Positions 3,161 to 20,054 of a stretch of 20,054 nt of DNA are shown here, piece after piece. Each line of letters opens with the position of its first letter. Position 1 is the first letter of the stretch. Origin of the DNA: a virus. The stretch lies in the IMG/VR virus record IMGVR_UViG_3300010399_000085, positions 1-20,054 of that record. One strand, 5' to 3'. The notes beneath the pieces are model-generated. The model was not told where the DNA came from. It ran no database searches and saw nothing but the letters and a program-made list of their open reading frames with translations. A program made the position numbers and the translations under genes.

Positions 3161-6100
3161 TATGATCCTGTGTTAAAGTCGTCCGAAAATTCGTCTTCAT
3201 GAAACTCGCCTGAAGCCACCGGCTCCCCATCTTCTCCAGCGATAATTCTTATTAAGTCGACTTGGTAACTTGCCTGCTTCGCGTCAAACTCGTAAGTCAT
3301 CGCGATGTATCGGCTTAAATCAATATTGTTCCTTATGCAGTGAATGAAGTGGTAGACCACATCGCTTATCATTCGTCCTGAAAGTGCTTTGGCGGGGTCG
3401 CTGAACTGACCCACATAGTCATCCAAAAGCAATTCGCCTAAATACTTTTCTTCTGCAACTCCGTCGCGTGCCCATTTATTTGTCGGCGTACCATCCTCTA
3501 ATCTAAAATACCCTCTATACAGATTGGCAGCATTTGGAATGTTTACGATGTCTCCAAGGATGATTTCTTTTTCGAAAGTTGACTTTATCAGTTTGCTAAC
3601 TTCATGTTCGAAGGTAAGTGTTTCTGAAGGGTCAAGATTTACACCTTGGCTTGTCCAGGGCAGATAGGCAATAGATACATTATCTATCAAAAATCTTTGG
3701 ACTAGCCCAGTAAAGGCTCCAATGTTTACAATCTTATCTAACTTCCATAAATATCCAGCCCCAGAAAATGTATTTGGCCTTACTATATTTGGAAGATCCT
3801 CAGCCTCAGTTGAATATTCTGATTTATAATAATATGTATTTGAGTCAGAATCTTCAGCGACTAAACGTTGTAGCCCTTGAGGCTCCAGATAAGCATCCAG
3901 GTCAAAAGTTTTTAAATCAGTAATATCTTCAAAATCTCTCCCATTATGATTATGCATATAAAAGGAGATTTGAATTTTGCCGCTTCCAATAGGTGCGCCG
4001 TTGTTACTAGCCAATGCCGTTACATCCAGTGTTTGGAATGATCCGTAGTCAGTTACATAAATTTCATTCTTGTACGGTGTTGATTCCCACTTATTGAATC
4101 CTGGATCATCATTGTAGTTTATGAAGTAAATGCTTGTCAGTCCGTCGTCACTTGTTATCTTCAATTCCCATGAAATCCTGATCCAAGGGACATTGTTTGT
4201 CGGCAATACCTGATATTGAAATTTGATTCTTATTTGATCTGGTGCCCCCCCTTCAAAAGGGACCTCTACGGAATAAAGTTTACTATCATTTTGAAGCCCA
4301 GTGGCCCTTGTATAATCAGCAAAAAATGCTCCCGTGCTTTCGCCATTGTCAACCTTCTGCAATCCATAAGTGATCCCTGGCTGGTTAATGATGAAGTTCC
4401 AGTTCTTAAACATTTTATTCCCCGACCCAAGATCGACTAAATCATCCTCTTCAAATCTACCCTCATCGATCAGATTTCCATCTTTACCAAGATTTTGGGT
4501 TATTGTGAACTTGCCATAATTACGAAGGAATGAAAGCACCTGAGATTTATCTCGCCATGCCAAACGATTAGTGTCTGATGGATACTTCAATTCGAGCAAC
4601 GGGTCAAGCGTTCCGTAGCTTTCATAATTTCCGTTGTAATCGAACTGTCTGAAGTTGATCGTTCTTACGCGGTCAGATTTACGAACGATCCACCAATAAC
4701 CCATGGACTGGAATATTTCGCCGCGAATCGTATCCGCGAATGATTGCAAAACTTTGTCGCAAGTTGTCGGCGTGCCTTTGCTGTCAAGATAAATCCTTGA
4801 GTCAACATAGAGTTGGTCGAATGGGTCCTCGCTGAAAACAACGGCCGGTCCAGTTAATGGAAAGTCATGAATCCTCATGGTCATTCCTGTTCCGCTATTC
4901 ACCTCAGCTACTATCCCAACTTTAGCCACCCTGACAGGGGCGGTTGCCCCATATGGGTAACTGATATTAAAATCAAACGAAACGAATTCTGTAGTTGTAG
5001 GATTACCCAACAATACTCCAAATTCATCATAAAAATTATAATGTAAATTAAGACTATCACCGGGAGCGAATCCGGATGATTGCCGATTGATCATGTATGA
5101 ATATGCACCGGGTTGAGATGAGATAGGCAAATTGTAAGTATACTCTTTGCTTGATCCCGTAGTTAGTGTTGTGTAAATCTCTGCGCCATCCAAAATCCAA
5201 TCATCTCCAGAGCCCTGGTTTGTCCATCCAGGATCATTAAGAGGTGGTAAAAACTGAATATTTCCTGATTCGTTTTTGTCCATTCCTTCGTCAAAGACAT
5301 TTATGGTTGATCTGATTGGCAATTGTAGTCCTGTCAACTTGAAAATATCTGCCATAATCTTCATCACACGAAGATTACCTTTGAACTTGTTGCCGCTGTC
5401 ATCAACGAAATCATAGTTTTTCATTTCGCCTAGGCCACAAGTTGCTGTAACCGACACCTCGAAAGGCTCGTGGATATATGGTTCCGTGTAGAATTCATTG
5501 AGTATGAATCCGATAAAGAATGGCTGAGGATCATTATCCACATAGTAGATGACCTTGAACTTTCTGTCATCCGGTCCGAACAATTCAGCGAACTTTCCGG
5601 GAGTCTCAGACATTAAAGTCAGCGTTATCTCGGCCGGATAAATGACAATGTTAGGATCATTCGCATTTCCGTTGTAGCGCAGTAGGATAGGAGTTGCTCC
5701 CTCGTATATTTCTTCCAATTCTCCTTCGTACCCTCGTTCCAGAATATCTACCCTGTGATGTTTTTGGCTTTCTTCCAAGAGATCGTCAAACTCCATCCGG
5801 TACTTAATTCCATATTCTGGTTTAAATTCCAGGTTGATTAGGATGTTATCCAGGCACCCGATAGGGTCTTTCGCGTAGACCGTGTATAGGCCTGAGGCGA
5901 GTCCTGTAAAATCGCCGGTTAATTGACCCTCTGTGTTATAATCGAAATCGGCGTTTAGTGCGAATTTTGGGACTCCATTTGAAGTGGTAGCGGTGACATG
6001 TATTTGCCCGTCTGTGGAAACTGCTGTTGTTGGCCTGACCACTGTGTAAATGCTCGAGAACTCAAGATCACAAACCGGTGTGTACTGGCATTCAGCCGCA

Positions 6101-9728: not shown

Positions 9729-10135
9729 GGCGTGTGTCTGGCTGAATAAGTGTCGCGAAGAATACAAGTTTTATCTTCTGCGTAGTAGAGGTCTTCGCCG
9801 CTCCCTACATACCAAATTTTCTTTATGTCTACTCCTGCTGACGTACCCGTGTAATTTTCAATCACAGCGCGTATAGCCTTTAGGATGTCAAATGCCTTTT
9901 TATAAGTATCCGCGTAGGCGCAAACATCAAAAGTTGTTGTATCGCAATCGCTCTTGACATTCTTTGCGATGTTTCCCACCGCCGACGTCCTCCTGACGGT
10001 CACGTAAGGTCTATTTTCAGCCTGTTCAGCGAACAGAGGATAAACCTTTATCGCTGGCGGGTTCGTTCCTGCTGTCCCCACAAGGTTCTGCACCGTTGCA
10101 TCCGCCACCGCCAAAGCAATTACCCCGCTGATCAT
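9725..10135 (-). CDS. Tail terminator / completion protein, DUF3168-type
   Basis: A 136-residue protein fitting the DUF3168 (gp17/HK97 gp11-like) family that caps the tail tube and joins it to the head. The layout matches: an N-terminal helix (VIALAVADATVQNLVG), a YPLFAEQAENRPYVTVRR segment with proline-rich turn, a strand with a DTTTFDVCAYADTYKKAFD motif, a helix (ILKAIRAVIENY), and a final strand pair. The usual family length is about 120-140 residues. It has ATGA overlaps on both sides, follows the gp10-like gene and precedes the tail tube, the conserved order in HK97-like phages. Confidence 0.85.
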   Translation of the reverse strand: MISGVIALAVADATVQNLVGTAGTNPPAIKVYPLFAEQAENRPYVTVRRTSAVGNIAKNVKSDCDTTTFDVCAYADTYKKAFDILKAIRAVIENYTGTSAGVDIKKIWYVGSGEDLYYAEDKTCILRDTYSARHTP

Positions 10136-10578
10136 CGTACCGTTCGTTTCAGGTAAGCGATGGTTACCTTTGACAGTTCCGTTTTCTCTCTTTCCATGAC
10201 TTCGTTTTTGGTCTGGTCGAAAGCGGGCCTTTCATAAGGTCGCGCGGGCATTACCCCACGGTTCGCGCCTCTTCTGGTTCGTCTGGGCTTCGTTCCGTAC
10301 TCAGGCAAGTGAGCTGCGTAGCCTTTAAACCCACCTTTACGGCGAGGTCCTACGGATATTTCACCCAGTCGGCCTTGATTCTTGGATCCTGACTTCACTA
10401 TCCCAATGGATTCGGCCAGGTTTCCGGTTAAACCAACTGGCGCAAGCCTGTGTATCCGATCAACCAAAGGTCGCGCTGCATTCACGTTGGCTTTTTGCAT
10501 GAGCTTGTCCGTGAACTGGCGGGGAAGCCCTCGAAACGCCTCCTGTATCTCTTTCATGCCTAGTATCTTGACGCTCAT
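10132..10578 (-). CDS. HK97 gp10-like head-tail protein
   Basis: A 148-residue member of the HK97 gp10 / minor tail family that takes part in the neck between head and tail. It begins MSVKILGMKEIQEAFRGLPR with the helix typical of this family, followed by MQKANVNAARPLVDRIHRLAPVG, where the APVxTGxLxxSI pattern is present as APVGLTGNLAESIG. Then comes a YAAHLPEYGTKPRRTRRG segment and an ARPYERPAFDQTK motif near the C-terminus, both diagnostic of the family. It is highly basic. Both junctions are ATGA overlaps. Family assignment is firm. Confidence 0.9.
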   Translation of the reverse strand: MSVKILGMKEIQEAFRGLPRQFTDKLMQKANVNAARPLVDRIHRLAPVGLTGNLAESIGIVKSGSKNQGRLGEISVGPRRKGGFKGYAAHLPEYGTKPRRTRRGANRGVMPARPYERPAFDQTKNEVMEREKTELSKVTIAYLKRTVR

Positions 10579-10913
10579 ACCTCATCTAAAAGTTTAGCCT
10601 TTATTTCAATGGTCCCCTTTCTGTTCGGTTCTGTGATGGATTGAATATCATAGTACCGGGTATTATAAAGGACCCTCATTTTCTCCGTTATGCCGGCCTT
10701 ATACCGGACTTTGAAAATCGTGTTTCGTACTGGTGTGATCTGATCAGATTCAAAATTTTCTCTTCCTTTCTCTTCCTTCACTTCCGACCAGGCAGGGTAA
10801 AAATCAGTCCATCCAGTTGTTTCGTTCGCGTTGTATTCGTCAAGCGTCTCAATTGGGGCTTGAATCGTTATTCTCCGATCCATCAATCCAACTTCAAGGC
10901 TAGACCGTAACAT
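10575..10913 (-). CDS. Phage head-tail adaptor (H-T join type)
   Basis: A 112-residue protein of the Phage_H_T_join (SPP1 gp16-like) family, a stopper or adaptor ring placed under the connector. Family features are LMDRRITIQAPIETLDEYNA, the ETTGWTDFYPAWSEVKEEKG strand-turn, VRNTIFKVRYKAGITEKMRV and RYYDIQSITEPNRKGTIEIK. The true start may be the internal ATG at 10883 (MDRRITIQ), which would remove the 14-base overlap with the glycosyltransferase gene and give the usual N-terminus. It ends in an ATGA overlap with the gp10-like gene. Confidence 0.88.
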   Translation of the reverse strand: MLRSSLEVGLMDRRITIQAPIETLDEYNANETTGWTDFYPAWSEVKEEKGRENFESDQITPVRNTIFKVRYKAGITEKMRVLYNTRYYDIQSITEPNRKGTIEIKAKLLDEV

Positions 10914-11595
10914 GAATCAAGTTTTTTATGCCTTCTTTCTCTCCTTCACTCAGTCCTGACAGCGCTTTTTCGATGTCATACTCTTTGCCGATGTCGTAAC
11001 GGAATGGCCAGATGTTAGTCGGGCTCTTGATGTCGATCCCGACCGGCTCCGAGCACTTTATTTTTTTCTCCATCACTCCGCGCCGGCCAAAGAACAAATT
11101 TGAACTGCCATCAAGGCCTCTGTTTATGTTCGGGTTCCAGACGTTGGTTCCCCATCGCTCAAAAACACTTCTCTTCACAGCCCGACCCATGCCGAAACTG
11201 TCATTTGTCTGATACTCTCGGCAGTCTCCGGTCTCTGTGTTGATGTAGGCCACGTTATTGATACCGATCATTTCCCGGCCGATATGAGGAGCGATGTAAG
11301 AGAGATATTCGTCTTTCAAAACATCATCACTGCCCATTTCAACCGTGTAATCCCATTCGAATTCCATCGCCTGTCCAAGTCCAAAGTTTTTCTTCTCCCC
11401 AAGCGGCTGATTTTCATGGAAGCAATAGTTGATTCCATATTTGCTGCACAGCCCAGCCATGGATGCCTCCGAGATCACAGCAAAAGCTTCAATGTCAAAG
11501 AGCCGCGACTTTTTAAGTCGGTTGATTCCCATGAAGCAGATCTCCGTGATCTCGGGACGTTTCCAAACGGCGAGGAAGATCAAAAGCTTTGTCAT
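10900..11595 (-). CDS. GT-A-like glycosyltransferase in the connector cluster
   Basis: A 231-residue protein that resembles family-2-type GT-A glycosyltransferases, which use nucleotide sugars. Supporting motifs are an N-terminal strand followed by WKRPEIT (residues 5-17, like the usual TxxRP opening), LGEKKNFGL at 65-73, the DXD-like metal site GSDD at 88-91 at the end of a hydrophobic strand, FGMGRAVKRSVFE at 134-146, and a candidate acceptor-site Asp in NRGLDGSS (Asp162). There is no signal peptide or membrane segment, so it would act in the cytoplasm. It sits between the connector and the adaptor, coupled by an ATGA overlap at its start. Modification of virion proteins, of the host surface, or of DNA are possible roles; the position in the structural operon favours virion or late use. 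The enzyme class is likely, the substrate unknown. Confidence 0.72.
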   Translation of the reverse strand: MTKLLIFLAVWKRPEITEICFMGINRLKKSRLFDIEAFAVISEASMAGLCSKYGINYCFHENQPLGEKKNFGLGQAMEFEWDYTVEMGSDDVLKDEYLSYIAPHIGREMIGINNVAYINTETGDCREYQTNDSFGMGRAVKRSVFERWGTNVWNPNINRGLDGSSNLFFGRRGVMEKKIKCSEPVGIDIKSPTNIWPFRYDIGKEYDIEKALSGLSEGEKEGIKNLIHVTV

Positions 11596-12155
11596 CCCAG
11601 CATTTTGTAAGGAAACATTGACTGATGAGACCCCATCGACACTGTGCTCACGTTTCCCTCCACTTCATCCTGGCGACTTTCCAGTGAAGTGGTTGCTTGT
11701 TTGAGAATCGCCAGCTTAATTCCGTAGGGAAGATTCTGAATTCCATACCCTGCCGCGAACTCGATGACAACCGCGTCTTTCCGGTTATACAAATTAGGAA
11801 GCGGGGCAATGAACTTCACATCCAGATAATCATCCGGACCATTGTCAGTGATCTCATAATTATCTGCTGGCAAATCCTGTATAGCGTTGGCAATGTCGTA
11901 ATATTTTATAATGACCGTGGTTAAATCCACCGGAGTAATATCAAAAGATGTGTCTGAAAAACTACGGAACACGGCCCGCCAGGTGGATTTGAGTAACGTT
12001 CGACGGGTATACTGCGCGCATTGATCTGTTGCCGCGCTCAAGAACGTGTTTAAGCTAGAATCCTGACTTTGGTCATTATCCAGCTTGGCATGCTCTCGAA
12101 AGTCGGCCAATGTCACTACTTGCGGTTCCGTTATCGTTACCAAATTACTTGTCAT
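11592..12155 (-). CDS. Head-tail connector, gp6-like
   Basis: A 187-residue protein of the HK97 gp6 / YqbG-like connector family, whose ring sits below the portal. The opening TEPQVVTLADFREHAKLDND and the helix LNTFLSAATDQCAQYTRRTL are characteristic, followed by a strand-rich core (WRAVFRSFSD, VIIKYYDIANA) and a C-terminal segment (VVIEFAAGYGIQNLPYGIKL, then helix LAILKQATTSLE) with the FxAGYG pattern of the family. The start overlaps the previous 59-residue gene by 11 bases; the end overlaps the glycosyltransferase by four. Assignment is firm. Confidence 0.9.
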   Translation of the reverse strand: MTSNLVTITEPQVVTLADFREHAKLDNDQSQDSSLNTFLSAATDQCAQYTRRTLLKSTWRAVFRSFSDTSFDITPVDLTTVIIKYYDIANAIQDLPADNYEITDNGPDDYLDVKFIAPLPNLYNRKDAVVIEFAAGYGIQNLPYGIKLAILKQATTSLESRQDEVEGNVSTVSMGSHQSMFPYKMLG

Positions 12156-14257: not shown

Positions 14258-14889
14258 TGTTTTATGATTTTATTTTTAACTAAATCTCGCTTCATGGCAT
14301 CAAGGTCCATTTCTGCTAAGTCTTTTGTGTTGTCCGGGTGCGTGGTCTCATAAGACCGCTTTGCAACCGTTGTATTTTGATAAGCCGGGTATGTCACCGG
14401 TGAGAAATCGTAAAGTCGTTTGATCCTGAGGACGGTGCGGTGTTCTTTACCGTTTCTGGTCTCCCAGCGATCGTCTTTCACCGAGAAAGCAAAGGAGCTC
14501 TGGGAAACATCCCCACGTTTGACCTTTTCCATCACGCGCACGTGATCAGGGTCATTGGGATTGTAGCGGATGGAGTATTTTGCGCCTGTCTTATCGATGG
14601 TCCAAGTCATCGTTCCAGAAGCCGTCCGGCCCAGCACCTGGTCGTCGTCGTGGTTGAACAATCCCCGTACGTCGTCGCCCATCACCTCAGAAAACGCTAG
14701 CGGGTCGATTTCCTCAGACATCCACCCAAGGTCAGCCACGTCTCCGAAAGTCGCGCCGTAGCCCTCAAAGAAAATATCTGTCCCTTCTGCACGAACCTCC
14801 ACCTTATTGGGTTGGGCGTAGCGCCGTTCCGCGCCATCGATCTTTTCGATATAGTCAAGCTTCATGGCCGTTGGTTTTATGGTGTCCAT
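14254..14889 (-). CDS. Prohead protease, HK97 family
   Basis: A 211-residue serine protease that trims the capsid scaffold domain before DNA packaging. Family motifs are FFEGYGATFGDVADLGWMSE at residues 40-60, EEIDPLAFSE, the catalytic His in GLFNHDDDQVLGR (His80), the nucleophile region GDVSQSSFAFS (Ser131 or Ser132), and YDFSPVTYPAY at 160-170. The first ATG (14889) lies 35 bases inside the portal gene with a TTAAATTGA leader; an internal ATG at 14865 would reduce the overlap to 11 bases. The end forms an ATGA overlap with the capsid gene. The portal-protease-capsid order is the classic HK97 one. Confidence 0.94.
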   Translation of the reverse strand: MDTIKPTAMKLDYIEKIDGAERRYAQPNKVEVRAEGTDIFFEGYGATFGDVADLGWMSEEIDPLAFSEVMGDDVRGLFNHDDDQVLGRTASGTMTWTIDKTGAKYSIRYNPNDPDHVRVMEKVKRGDVSQSSFAFSVKDDRWETRNGKEHRTVLRIKRLYDFSPVTYPAYQNTTVAKRSYETTHPDNTKDLAEMDLDAMKRDLVKNKIIKQ

Positions 14890-16195
14890 TCAATTTAATA
14901 GCGTGATCCAAAGCCCGTTGTTGTTGGCTACCGCCCGGATCTGATGCGCTGGAAGTAGCCGGTTCGGTCATGGTATCGACGAAATCATCCACGCGGTCGA
15001 CCGGAATCATATTTGCGGGTACATAACGTCTGTCGCCGCCTTCCCACTTGTTCCAGTCTTCCAATTCGGCGATTTGGTCTCCGCTGATCGCTCCAATGTT
15101 GAAAAGCGTCCGGTAACCCTCTGTTCGGGTCTTGAAATCCCCGCGGAGCAACGCGCTGGCGTTGAACTTCACATAATAAGGAGTACGGGAGGTTGCATTG
15201 GATTCGGCGAACAGTTTTGAATTGCATTCCTGCTCGATATTGGTCACAATTGGGAGTAGAGTATACTTCACAAAGGTCAAATCCTGCTGTTCGGCATTCG
15301 CCCATGTAGCGCGCTGGTAGTTCTGAGCCAGCGACGGCGGCACGCGGAAGATGCCGTAAATGTTCTGATCGGTAGCGCTGATAGCCTCAAGATATTGGGC
15401 ATCGCTCGGGGTGATCATTAAAGGGTTGTATTTCAGGCCGAACGGCAATACCGGAGTTTTGCCGGTATCAATATTTTCTCGCCAACCGTCCTGAAGTTTG
15501 CCTTCCTGCTTCTTAACTACGTCGAAATGAGCCTCGGTTGAGAAGTATCCAGGGGGTTTTGTTCCGATCGCATTCGAACCATATTTTTTGAGCTTCTTAC
15601 CATATCCAATGGTCTCAGCATTGTATCCAATCTTCGAAATCCCATAGTAACCATCTAAGGAAAGGTCTTTAAAGTGCAGCATTTCCCAGAACGCGTACCG
15701 CTTTCCTCCATGCTGATAATAAGCGTCGCCCGAATCACTTACCATAATCTGAACTCCCAAGGGATCACACACAATGTCTAATCGGTTTGGCCTCATCGCA
15801 CGGGTGTATGTCACTACAGCAAAACAGTTACCGTACAAGTCGATATGGGCGCAGACGGTTTTCCAGAAATCAGCAGCAGTTTGAAACGGGTTCGGCCTAT
15901 TATGAATGAGGTTGTAAACAGGGTGTTCGTAAGCGGTGCGGGAGCCCTGATCGGTGTCTTGCTTGACACTCGCGGGCATCGTGGATAGAGATTCGGCGCG
16001 GACAAGGACACAAGTAAAGACCGTGGCCTGTCGCATGGCGTCCTTCGTGCTGATGGTTTTGCATAGGTCGTCAGCATCAGCACCGACCCACCAGCGGGCG
16101 AAATCGCCATTTAATAGGGAAAAGACTTGCTGTGACCGGTAACTGATGTTACGGAAAACATTGCCAACGCCGTGGAAAAATTGCTTTATCCCCAT
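14855..16195 (-). CDS. Portal protein, HK97 family
   Basis: A 446-residue portal that forms the dodecameric ring at the head vertex, where the terminase docks and DNA passes. Family segments are KDAMRQATVFTCVLVRAESL and STMPASVKQD near residues 50-85, then HPVYNLIHNRPNPFQTAADF, the stem approach DLYGNCFAVVTY, a wing strand region ending FWEMLHFKDLSLDGYYGISK, and the late motif YGIFRVPPSLA with the NAEQQDLTFVKYTLLPIVTNI helix. The length is usual for the family. It starts at ATG 16195 after a short stretch with no Shine-Dalgarno motif, and there is a plus-strand gene immediately upstream rather than a coupled one, so this segment may need its own promoter or read-through. Confidence 0.95.
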   Translation of the reverse strand: MGIKQFFHGVGNVFRNISYRSQQVFSLLNGDFARWWVGADADDLCKTISTKDAMRQATVFTCVLVRAESLSTMPASVKQDTDQGSRTAYEHPVYNLIHNRPNPFQTAADFWKTVCAHIDLYGNCFAVVTYTRAMRPNRLDIVCDPLGVQIMVSDSGDAYYQHGGKRYAFWEMLHFKDLSLDGYYGISKIGYNAETIGYGKKLKKYGSNAIGTKPPGYFSTEAHFDVVKKQEGKLQDGWRENIDTGKTPVLPFGLKYNPLMITPSDAQYLEAISATDQNIYGIFRVPPSLAQNYQRATWANAEQQDLTFVKYTLLPIVTNIEQECNSKLFAESNATSRTPYYVKFNASALLRGDFKTRTEGYRTLFNIGAISGDQIAELEDWNKWEGGDRRYVPANMIPVDRVDDFVDTMTEPATSSASDPGGSQQQRALDHAIKLNGHHKTNGHEA

Positions 16196-16564: not shown

Positions 16565-16902
16565 TTCATCACAATTTTTAGATTCCTCATTGATGCGAAC
16601 GATACGTATCTGCCAGATTTTTTAAGGGCCTTTTTCAATTTTCTTGGATGGCGTTTCATCCTGGCTTGCATCTGTTTATTGAGCGCCTTCACAAGATCAT
16701 TACGCAGATCATCAATAATGTCCTTGTACAATTCACTATCTCGATATGAGGCATTTTTAACAGTAGCCCTCTCATACTTCATAATTTTGGATTCAGGGAT
16801 GCCAAATGCTTTATTGATTAGATCCATGGTGCCGCCGCAATCATGCATAAATTGGCGTTCAGCATCTGTCATTTCAAGGGGCATATATTTCAGATCGCTC
16901 AT
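16561..16902 (-). CDS. Basic helical protein of unknown function
   Basis: A 113-residue protein between terminase and portal, coupled by ATGA overlaps to both neighbours. The N-terminal half (MTDAERQFMHDCGGTMDLIN, then KAFGIPESKIMKYE) looks like a small helix-turn-helix-like bundle, and the C-terminal half is strongly basic (MQARMKRHPRKLKKALKKSG). A nucleic-acid-binding role would fit both its charge and its place beside packaging genes. No catalytic motif or membrane segment is seen, and no family is recognised. Confidence 0.72.
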   Translation of the reverse strand: MSDLKYMPLEMTDAERQFMHDCGGTMDLINKAFGIPESKIMKYERATVKNASYRDSELYKDIIDDLRNDLVKALNKQMQARMKRHPRKLKKALKKSGRYVSFASMRNLKIVMK

Positions 16903-17345
16903 TTCCGTTTCTTTTTCTTTGGATGGAATCTAGGCCCTGCGCCCTTTGCTGTTGTAATGAACTTGGACGCCGCGTTAACTTCATTCAATTCCTTTAAGGC
17001 TACAGAAAGTCTCTTGAGATCAGATTCACGTTTCTCCCTTTCGGCCTGTTCGTTAATCATTCGCGCATCTTCAATCAATAAATTCAGAATGACATAAGGC
17101 GATAATGCTCGTTGGGCGGAGTGATCCAATATTTTTTCTGTTATACTGTAATCTTTAACCACATCATAAATATATCTTACGACGGCTATAGAATGTGGGT
17201 AACGAGTCGCTATCTCTACAATTTTCTCATCATCTTCCCATGCTGGCATATTCTTAATCCACTCAGGAGACGTGAGATATTCAATCTGTTTCTTCAGATC
17301 GAAATCCTTAACAAACTTCTCATGAAATTCTCTATCCTGGTTCAT
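16899..17345 (-). CDS. Helical protein of unknown function next to terminase
   Basis: A 148-residue, mostly helical protein. It starts inside an ATGA overlap with the terminase stop and ends in another with the 113-residue gene. The middle has hydrophobic helices (YPHSIAVVRYIYDVVKDYSI, then ALSPYVILNLLIED), followed by a charged coiled-coil-like stretch (ARMINEQAEREKRESDLKRL) and a basic tail (HPKKKKRK). No nuclease, HNH or ATPase motif is seen. Its fixed coupling to the large terminase suggests a packaging or head assembly partner, which is an inference. Confidence 0.72.
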   Translation of the reverse strand: MNQDREFHEKFVKDFDLKKQIEYLTSPEWIKNMPAWEDDEKIVEIATRYPHSIAVVRYIYDVVKDYSITEKILDHSAQRALSPYVILNLLIEDARMINEQAEREKRESDLKRLSVALKELNEVNAASKFITTAKGAGPRFHPKKKKRK

Positions 17346-19069
17346 ATATAAAGTATCCCAATATCACCGCCACCCTCTGTCTCGATAGTCTTCCATTGTG
17401 CAATCGCACTGATCGCCGCCGAAATCCCCACCACCCGGCTCTCACTCTTCTCTATCCTTATCCCTGACTCTTTCCGAATCACATTGCAGTTTCCATTCAT
17501 CCAAGTTAAGACAGGATTATTGAAGTGCTCAACTTTGTGAGCTGTCAACAAATCTTCCCACTGTGAAGTAGGGTCCCCGATGCCACCGACCGTCTGCGAC
17601 AACGGGTTACCTACTATCCCCATCTTAATCAACCCCTGCACAATGTCGTTATTTTCTTTGATCTTCGGAAAGGCGAAAGAGTGCATGTAGTACTTGCCGA
17701 TTTCTTCCGAAAGCCAGTCGATCACCATGGAGTTTTCCACCGTGTTCCCTTCATCAACCTTGATGTAATCGAGCCACTTCCCGTACCCATCGAACTTATC
17801 CGGGTTGTTGTTAATGTACTCCCGGGGCATCCAAAAAAACACCTTAACCCTTACGATGTCACCGGGAAATACAAGAACAAAAGCGCTTAACCCTTTCGCG
17901 CCGACGAGCTCGATCCCTCCGTAACAAACCTGCCCTTCAAGTTCGTCTTCATCGGTCCCATGCGCATTGGCGTTCCAGGTTTCGGCGCTGATGAACGTCG
18001 TGGGTGAATCCACCCACATATTGAAATTGAAAGTCAGAACGTCTACTTCTTTTGTTCCGCCTTCGTTCTTGGCTTTCGTTAATTGGCTCTTTAAAAAGTG
18101 ATCGTAAACCGAAACTTTGTAGTTAGGATTCGACTGCTGGTAGATTTCAGGGTGGTCCATCAAGTAACCGATCGTAAGTTCGAACGGCTTTCCATCTTCC
18201 CCGATAGGTCTATCCATTTCGAAGATGAACGCCAGGTAAGTATCATCCTCGATCGTTCCCTCCATAATATCTATCCCTGTTTTTCTCAACTTCGTATAGC
18301 ATGGCCCTTGTTTCTTTGGTCCTGAGGTGGTTATGCAGACCGTCAATGGCTCCTCGCGTGCCCCCTGCGCGTTCTCCATGGCATTCAGAAGGGAGTCACT
18401 ATCGGCCATCGCGTACTCGTCGATGATGACTAAAGAGGGATTCTTTCCGTGCTTCCCGCCCGCTGTTCTCTTTGTTTGGTCCTCCGGCTCTTTGGCCATG
18501 GTCTCGATAAACCCGTCCCGCTCCTCGTGGGTAATCGTAAGAATCTTTCCATTGTACTTGCTGAGCTTAACCGTGTCGTCCTCGATATAGTCCGCCAGAA
18601 CTGGGGAATTCTCGATGGTCTTACCAGCGTAGTTTACGCAGATGTTTGCCTGCTCATGGTTGGTGGCTCCGACGAAAACCTTTGGCGCGTTGATCCGGTC
18701 GGCGAACAAGTGGAACAAGGAAAAGAACGCGGCCATTGCTGTTTTTGCATTCTTCTTTCCGGTCTCGATAAACGCCATCTTGACCCTCCTAAGCCCGGTT
18801 TCCACCACGATCCACCCATACACCTGCTGAATTATGAACTTCTGCCACGGCTCCAGCATGACCGGCTGCCCGCGCCATTTGTCCTCCCAGTGGTTTAAGT
18901 TCTCCTCGATGAAGATGATGGGCAAGTTGGCCTGGTCCTCATAGAAGTAGATGTCCTCCCGCTCAAGATCTGAGATAAACCGTTTGGCCGAAAGCTTCAT
19001 TAAATGCCCTGTTTTTAGGACATTCTCTGGCTCCAGGACCCAGCGGGCGTATTGTTCGGCGGCGCTCAA
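17342..19069 (-). CDS. Large terminase subunit, HK97/P27-type, nuclease residues altered
   Basis: The DNA-packaging motor, 575 residues from the TTG at 19069, chosen because TTGA overlaps the previous stop; a TTG at 19090 gives 582. Numbering here follows 19069. The ATPase domain has a P-loop-like TGKKNAKT at 103-110, where Ala replaces the usual Gly of the NGK[ST] core, Walker B SLVIIDEYA (Asp217-Glu218) and the coupling motif CITTSG near 245-250. The C-terminal nuclease-type domain is recognisable (CYGGIELVGAKGLSAFVLVF, NNPVLTWMNGN), but where the family has catalytic Asp residues this protein has Glu387 (GGIEL), Pro468 (FAFPK) and Val547 (SRVVGI). It may therefore be a poor or inactive nuclease. 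It is preceded by a small accessory gene and followed by two unknown helical proteins. Identity as terminase is firm; the loss is inferred from alignment by memory. Confidence 0.93.
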   Translation of the reverse strand: MSAAEQYARWVLEPENVLKTGHLMKLSAKRFISDLEREDIYFYEDQANLPIIFIEENLNHWEDKWRGQPVMLEPWQKFIIQQVYGWIVVETGLRRVKMAFIETGKKNAKTAMAAFFSLFHLFADRINAPKVFVGATNHEQANICVNYAGKTIENSPVLADYIEDDTVKLSKYNGKILTITHEERDGFIETMAKEPEDQTKRTAGGKHGKNPSLVIIDEYAMADSDSLLNAMENAQGAREEPLTVCITTSGPKKQGPCYTKLRKTGIDIMEGTIEDDTYLAFIFEMDRPIGEDGKPFELTIGYLMDHPEIYQQSNPNYKVSVYDHFLKSQLTKAKNEGGTKEVDVLTFNFNMWVDSPTTFISAETWNANAHGTDEDELEGQVCYGGIELVGAKGLSAFVLVFPGDIVRVKVFFWMPREYINNNPDKFDGYGKWLDYIKVDEGNTVENSMVIDWLSEEIGKYYMHSFAFPKIKENNDIVQGLIKMGIVGNPLSQTVGGIGDPTSQWEDLLTAHKVEHFNNPVLTWMNGNCNVIRKESGIRIEKSESRVVGISAAISAIAQWKTIETEGGGDIGILYI

Positions 19070-19216: not shown

Positions 19217-19594
19217 TTATCCGAAAATTCGCTTGAAAAATGATTCTGTTTTGGGACCCCATCCTATCCAGTCCGGCGGTTGATCCGCTTCGGGTTCAGG
19301 AGGTATATCCCACATCACGACATCCATTCGTTCTCTTTCCTCTACGCGAAATCCCCTAACCCTCAATACTGCGCGAACATCGATCCGTAGTCTCCAAATA
19401 AAATGGCATTCGAATTCACCAGCTTTCGCTGCTTTCTCTATGTCCTTCATGGCGTCAGCGAGTCGTTTATGAAAATCGTTCTCTAAATAAACTTGCTTGG
19501 CAGGTTGAGCTGCGTCCGTCATTGATCTTGCTTTTTCTGCATCAAAAACCATATAAAATTCTGTTTTGTCTGTCTTGACTCGGGATACATCCAA
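19217..19594 (-). CDS. Small accessory protein between terminase genes
   Basis: A 125-residue protein between the small and large terminase genes. It has a long helix (YLENDFHKRLADAMKDIEKA), then AAKAGEFECHFIWRLR and VLRVRGFRVEERERMDVVMW, a helix-strand pattern (small residues before GEF, then a GF-x-V segment ending in W) that recurs in small uncharacterised phage proteins where GKY, GYxV and ISW motifs appear in the same order. The C-terminus is proline-rich and acidic (DIPPEPEADQPPD) and ends ESFFKRIFG. Starts three bases after the small terminase stop. Function unknown. Confidence 0.72.
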   Translation of the reverse strand: MDVSRVKTDKTEFYMVFDAEKARSMTDAAQPAKQVYLENDFHKRLADAMKDIEKAAKAGEFECHFIWRLRIDVRAVLRVRGFRVEERERMDVVMWDIPPEPEADQPPDWIGWGPKTESFFKRIFG

Positions 19595-19597
19595 TTT

Positions 19598-19987
19598 TTA
19601 TTTGGCAATCTTCAAGTTTGAGAAGTCTTTCTTCTTCGGCTTGTCAGTCATCTTTTTGAAAATCTTCTCCCGATCCCCAGGGTTCAACCCGAACTTGCCC
19701 GCGTGCTTCAGAATGTTCCCGTACTCGTTCTTCATCACCGTGTACTCGGGGCGGATCTGCGAGTACTCCCCGCCTTTCTCCGTGATGATCGTCATCGATA
19801 CCCCGTCATCCTTGCATACCTTCGCGTTCTCCGCGTACAAACAAAAGCTATTCGCCAGCATCGCCAGCTCGAATCGGTCCGCGTCCATCATCTTCATCTT
19901 CGCCCGGCAGTGATCAAGCAGGGCCTCCAGGATAACCTCGCCAGCATCCGATAAAAAGTCATCCCCAAATTGTGCGTTTTTACTCAT
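19598..19987 (-). CDS. Small terminase subunit, P27-like
   Basis: A 129-residue protein of the P27 (Terminase_4-type) small terminase family, which recognises phage DNA and hands it to the large subunit. Family features are an N-terminal helix (AGEVILEALLDHCRAKMKMM), the DADRFELAMLANSFCLYAEN helix where P27 proteins have the alternating D-x-x-L-E/A helix, a middle strand-turn with a GGEYSQIRPEYTVMKNEYGN segment (usual Q-P sequence region), and the closing ILKHAGKFGLNPGDREKIF, matching the typical L-x-x-x-G-L-x-P-x-D/E-R ending. Length is near the family norm. It is the first gene in view of the operon and lies 67 bases from the right edge. Confidence 0.87.
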   Translation of the reverse strand: MSKNAQFGDDFLSDAGEVILEALLDHCRAKMKMMDADRFELAMLANSFCLYAENAKVCKDDGVSMTIITEKGGEYSQIRPEYTVMKNEYGNILKHAGKFGLNPGDREKIFKKMTDKPKKKDFSNLKIAK

Positions 19988-20054
19988 TTTAAGCTGTTTT
20001 TAAAGTTTTACCCCCGGGTTATTGAAAAATTGAGCGAACAAAAAAAGTGAAAAG
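19988..20054 (-). other. Leader upstream of small terminase
   Basis: These 67 bases precede the small terminase start on the minus strand. The sequence is A/T-rich around a CCCGGG block (TAACCCGGGGGTAAAACTTT), with TTTTTTTG further upstream. TTTG and TAAAACTTT could be a degenerate Bacteroidota promoter, but neither matches well. No Shine-Dalgarno motif is obvious before the ATG (AAACAGCTTAAAATG). No gene is seen here. Confidence 0.3.

Follow-up and report, generated by a model that had tools for sequence, protein, structure and literature searches.

How is the genome of a tailed phage cut for packaging when the nuclease half of its large terminase lacks the catalytic acids? This question is raised by the terL gene of IMGVR_UViG_3300010399_000085, an uncultured tailed phage of which the whole stretch of 20,054 nt (hereafter the window) was analysed (Table 1). 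An earlier note on this DNA had read the gene as a large terminase that keeps the Asp-Glu of its Walker B motif and an otherwise preserved nuclease domain in which the three catalytic positions read Glu, Pro and Val, and had proposed that this motor pumps DNA while another protein does the cutting.

Table 1. Features of the window that bear on packaging and cutting (all on the minus strand).
Feature	Position	Strand	Remarks
terL, large terminase	17342..19069	-	intact frame, 575 aa
ATPase (motor) domain, residues ~47-353	18011..18931	-	Walker A K109 and Walker B D217 E218 retained
RNase H-fold nuclease domain, residues ~355-564	17378..18007	-	catalytic residues missing
Codon E387	17909..17911	-	HK97 D302 position; end of first nuclease strand 381-387
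Codon G393	17891..17893	-	position of the fourth conserved Asp (164/165 intact relatives)
Codon P468	17666..17668	-	HK97 D388 position; end of strand 461-468
Codon V547	17429..17431	-	HK97 D471 position; start of helix 547-564
Portal protein	14855..16195	-	motor docking partner
terS, small terminase, P27/Terminase_4 family	19598..19987	-	NCBIfam match under its cut-off
Putative cos-like terminus	20033..20054	-	5'-CTTTTCACTTTTTTTGTTCGCT-3' from contig edge; 67 bases upstream of terS

The terL frame starts with a TTG codon at 19069 (MSAAEQY), exactly as in relatives, and remains open down to 17342. Its product matches Pfam TerL_ATPase (9e-24), Pfam TerL_nuclease (1.5e-8) and the PHROG 9 terminase family (4e-102), and its best solved relative is the HK97 large terminase 6z6d (phmmer, E 1e-21). 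Open reading frame, frame and family matches agree with the gene call of the earlier note and place the window TerL among the HK97-type large terminases. Its ATPase motifs are preserved, since K109 of Walker A and D217-E218 of Walker B, the pair that had been singled out before, are invariant among the relatives. The protein thus shows the ATPase motifs and the RNase H-fold C-terminal domain of HK97-type enzymes and lacks their catalytic Asp triad. It is homologous to the HK97-type large terminases, but with the triad absent it is not an active-nuclease member of this group.

The catalytic residues of HK97 TerL are D302, D388 and D471 (PMC9410871). In the phmmer alignment of the two proteins, GGIEL of the window falls on AGLDL, SFAFPK on SMAFDR, and SRVVGI on GRIDGM, so that all three catalytic Asp residues are replaced, by E387, P468 and V547; both the residues and the codon coordinates given earlier were right. 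A fourth conserved Asp, located six residues beyond the first one, is Gly393 in the window, while the 165 TerLs with an intact triad described below carry Asp at this site in 164 cases and Asn in one. The mapping of the three catalytic positions combines the sequence alignment with the strand and helix elements of an AlphaFold2 model, which was built from a 24-sequence alignment and has a mean pLDDT of 88. In this model E387 ends a strand (381-387), P468 ends another (461-468), and a helix begins at 547, which are the places expected for catalytic residues. Comparison of the model with 6z6d by VIA-align gave a Z of 29.8 over 466 residues, with a different relative placement of the two domains (rmsd 9.6), and residues 355-560 matched the metal-bound G20c nuclease with a Z of 14.7 and an rmsd of 3.3. 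Judged by the model, the window TerL is a protein with a retained RNase H-type nuclease fold, and these structural matches bear out the view that the domain is otherwise preserved.

The loss is shared by a whole group of phages. We collected 195 distinct TerLs through IMG/VR searches with the window protein and successive alignments, and through one scan of bacterial genomes. In 165 of them the three positions read D, D, D, and the other 30, all with open frames, lack the triad, none of these retaining more than one of the three Asp residues. A tree of ATPase-domain sequences only, which is thereby independent of the nuclease trait, unites the 30 triad-less proteins in a single clade (SH-aLRT 100) that is nested among intact HK97-type TerLs and implies one change. 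This confirms that the loss of the triad is a property of the lineage and not of one damaged gene. A second, intact TerL was not found in the 13 contigs of the clade that were searched, each of which has one TerL_nuclease gene. No cultured relatives were present among 50,697 phage records (best identity ~32%), and no bacterial genome contig exceeded 28% identity in a search with short peptide patterns, which may miss some. One phage of the clade (L060) carries at 10463-11848 a tyrosine integrase with Arm-DNA-bind_5 and Phage_int_SAM_5 domains, pointing to temperate phages that may infect Bacteroidota.

In three close pairs within the clade, dN/dS in the nuclease domain is 0.02-0.05. Such low values indicate purifying selection on a domain that is still needed. 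In addition, N446, R532, N525 and Q558 are specific to the clade and nearly invariant, which suggests a new or modified role of the domain, for example gripping DNA or a partner. The nuclease half diverges faster than the ATPase half within the clade, but this is suggestive only, because the pairs cannot count as independent comparisons and an exchange of the two TerL halves seems to have taken place within the clade. The window and L007, for instance, are 79% identical in the ATPase half and 49% in the nuclease half, and the corresponding values for the window and L062 are 69% and 68% (17378-19069).

If these terminases do not cut, it matters whether their genomes still have fixed ends. At least nine contigs of the clade start at the same homologous place (the window, L007, L062, L064, L067, L074, L078 and L188, with L085 within one base), and six nuclease-intact relatives (L011, L013, L079, L104, L105 and L210) begin at the same homologous site. 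The distance from the contig edge to terS is 65 bases in L007 and 92 bases in L064/G002, the edges being homologous. The shared layout consists of a (C/G/A)TTTCGA-like start, a T tract, TTCGC and a G-rich box, followed by terS; the ends of L082 and of L071/L072, which are nearly identical to each other, fall in this stretch too, but the sequence there is more diverged. We roughly estimate that chance would put a contig edge within one base of a given site on the order of once in a thousand cases, and the repeated coincidence of edges therefore points to physical genome ends. On this assembly evidence, the window probably stops on its right side at a physical, cos-like genome end rather than at an arbitrary contig break. 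Two hallmarks of cos packaging are thus seen in the window, a terS gene beside terL and, as far as contig edges tell, fixed ends at a conserved site. Seven contigs of the clade run through the site, most of them with a shared junction of the AAACCGCGC/TTTCGA type, indicating that the ends are joined in some molecules. The junction typically reads GAAACCGCGC/TTTCGA and has partial dyad symmetry, and some 40 bases ahead of it lies a box resembling GGGTAGGG. The ends of G002 are short of a few bases that the contigs running through the site possess, a difference compatible with the trimming of 3' overhangs. HK97 TerS binds 15-29 bases beyond its cut, beside an A tract (PMC11331095), and the T tract of the clade site is similarly placed. 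A pattern scan of IMG/VR with the cos-like 17-mer matched the contig of L007 (as L089) and four others. The fixed ends argue that cutting persists in the clade without an active site in TerL.

Which protein would then cut? The earlier note had named two places to look, the genes next to terL and an HNH gene beyond the right edge. The former did not hold up: the neighbours at 19217-19594 and 16899-17345 have no significant family match, and neither was accepted as the missing nuclease, since they do not occur at the same place in relatives and are thus poor candidates. Some further observations concern these and other genes of the clade. The 148-aa product of 16899-17345, which follows terL, has a weak, below-threshold match to the nucleotidyltransferase family DUF2204, and by eye the gap between terL and the portal gene is a variable cargo spot that elsewhere in the clade holds glycosyltransferase-like, PP-loop-like and asparagine synthase-like genes. 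Just before the portal gene, a minus-strand gene of about 61 aa is seen in L007 (5475-5660), G002 (5281-5466) and G015 (17449-17634). The gene at 10900-11595 (231 aa), located within the head-tail connector cluster, has counterparts in the same position in L007 (9913-10617) and G002 (9741-10475) but no PHROG or NCBIfam match; our impression is that its product looks like a glycosyltransferase-type protein.

The second place proved more rewarding. All seven contigs of the clade that cross the site (L009, L065, L068, L069, L070, L191 and L203, with L068 and L069 being closely related) have, upstream of terS, a gene for an HNH protein whose D-H..N..H motif is intact. In G002 and G009, which are long, linear and start at terS or cos, the HNH gene lies near the opposite (right) end, and in G022 it lies just downstream of terL; no HNH gene was seen in G011, the contig of which begins inside terS. 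The earlier guess was thus correct in placing an HNH gene upstream of the site, as the relatives show, whereas the edge beyond which it was sought is probably the genome end itself. The window contig has no HNH gene because it ends at this putative cos, and since the contigs of relatives end at the same base, the gene is expected towards the opposite terminus of the linear genome. In the relatives, then, a gene for an HNH protein, its motif intact, is found by terS and cos, as in the HNH-assisted system of the HK97 gp74 type, and gp74 reportedly promotes cleavage at cos (PMC9410871, PMC11331095). The HNH proteins of the clade fall in phage HNH families, and their nearest solved structure is that of Geobacillus virus E2 (GVE2; 5h0m), an enzyme that nicks DNA unaided (PMC5304195). 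Phages with an intact TerL nuclease also have HNH genes next to their terminases, and the clade is thus not distinguished by having one. The simplest history is accordingly that a two-enzyme cos cutter lost its TerL half once.

Taken together, the loss of the triad across the clade, the fixed ends that are kept and, in relatives, an HNH gene close to cos support the proposal that the motor pumps while another protein cuts. The explanation that we favour, with good though not overwhelming confidence, is that TerL is a predicted inactive, motor-only protein and that cos is cut by the HNH protein, which we infer to be the cutter; the pairing of an HNH cutter with an inactive TerL in this clade appears fairly probable. 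The ATPase half of TerL would drive DNA through the portal, while the RNase H-like half, devoid of its metal-binding acids, would not cut but be kept as a structural and DNA-gripping domain. Genomes would be cut at the fixed site just upstream of terS by the small HNH endonuclease encoded across the junction, and so at the opposite end once the genome is linear; with the small terminase and the motor positioning it at cos, this enzyme would nick both strands.

Another phage nuclease or a host enzyme might make the cut in place of the HNH protein. The action of the latter is deduced here, many genes of the clade have no assigned function, and the surroundings of terminases have been called a hot spot for homing endonucleases, homing HNH genes being often found there (PMC10448857). 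However, the HNH gene is present in every contig of the clade that shows the far side of the site, and the contigs examined revealed no other nuclease gene that recurs at one position beside the site. We therefore regard a different cutter as unlikely.

A second possibility is that the nuclease domain itself still cuts, its metal site having been rebuilt from E387 together with further acids (E505, E514 or E445, for example). E387 is acidic in the window, most of the 30 members have E or D at this position, and E505 is nearly invariant. RNase H-type two-metal catalysis requires the first Asp, but position 387 can also be K, H, Q, Y or W in members with similar domains, including K in L062, which is about 68% identical to the window; this makes a rebuilt site unlikely. 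Position 468 (P, N, K, R, L or D) is acidic in two members only, position 547 (V, L, A, S, G, C or Y) is acidic in none, and E505 is equally conserved in intact TerLs and thus no replacement for the triad. Nor did the alignment of the clade reveal a clade-specific conserved acid in the nuclease domain that could substitute for it. The variety of residues at the catalytic positions fits lost chemistry rather than a shifted active site, and we consider the TerLs of this clade very unlikely to cut. The chance of a rebuilt site appears small.

Equally small is the chance that these phages have unit-length genomes like phi29, for example through protein-primed replication, in which case cutting would be needless, the nuclease would have decayed, and the fixed ends would be replication ends. 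There is a precedent in phi29 gp16, whose nuclease domain is vestigial and which packages genomes of unit length (PMC7672431), and fixed contig ends as such are compatible with this idea. Against it, no protein-primed DNA polymerase B (PF03175) was found in 13 contigs of the clade, which are not necessarily complete genomes (among 14 control genomes searched for PF03175 only E. coli matched, weakly), seven contigs run through the site as joined ends, terS is retained, and the nuclease-intact relatives share the same end. The marks of a phi29-like ATPase system, namely a protein-primed polymerase and the lack of a small terminase, are thus not seen: the window has terS, and PF03175 is missing from the 13 contigs of relatives. 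The last alternative, a broken or decaying gene in a defective prophage or a product of sequencing errors, has nothing but the substitutions themselves in its favour and is excluded by the 30 distinct sequences that share the loss, the low dN/dS in three pairs, and head and tail gene frames that are open throughout.

With the motor-only TerL and HNH cutter as the preferred reading, the clade can be compared with known systems. It resembles HK97 (6z6d, TerS, gp74) in both domain folds, the ATPase motifs, the cos-type fixed ends, the gene order terS-terL-portal-protease-capsid and an HNH gene upstream of terS; unlike in HK97 TerL, which has D302, D388 and D471, the triad is replaced and its loss is fixed. 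It resembles phi29 gp16 in that the RNase H-type domain of its packaging ATPase has kept the fold and lost the catalytic acids (PMC7672431). However, phi29 has no small terminase and uses pRNA and protein-capped unit genomes, whereas the window has terS and keeps a cos-like end, and the domain of gp16 is reduced and without detectable sequence similarity to terminase nucleases, whereas that of the window is complete and similar. GVE2, whose TerL is among the nearest from cultured phages (~30-31%), lies outside the triad-less clade, and the TerL of a related Geobacillus phage (L004) has an intact D, D, D.

The terminase nuclease domain has been called universal in Caudovirales, the tailed phages (PMC7824862), phi29-like phages, in which it is inactive, being the known exception (PMC7672431). 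The literature searched, which was that available without subscription, contained no description of a comparable terminase clade. On balance, we lean towards a further packaging arrangement besides the lambda/HK97-type, headful and phi29-type ones, in which cos phages would use a motor-only terminase, sequence-specific cutting would be left wholly to a separate HNH protein, and the old nuclease domain would serve as a docking and DNA-holding part. A match to the TerL_nuclease domain does not prove activity. For HK97, a split of the cos strand cuts between TerL and the HNH protein has been proposed as one option (PMC11331095). A cos lineage without an active site in TerL is a natural experiment on the question of which strand is cut by TerL and which, if any, by HNH, and since TerL is very unlikely to cut in this clade, its purified components would show directly whether the HNH protein makes both cuts.
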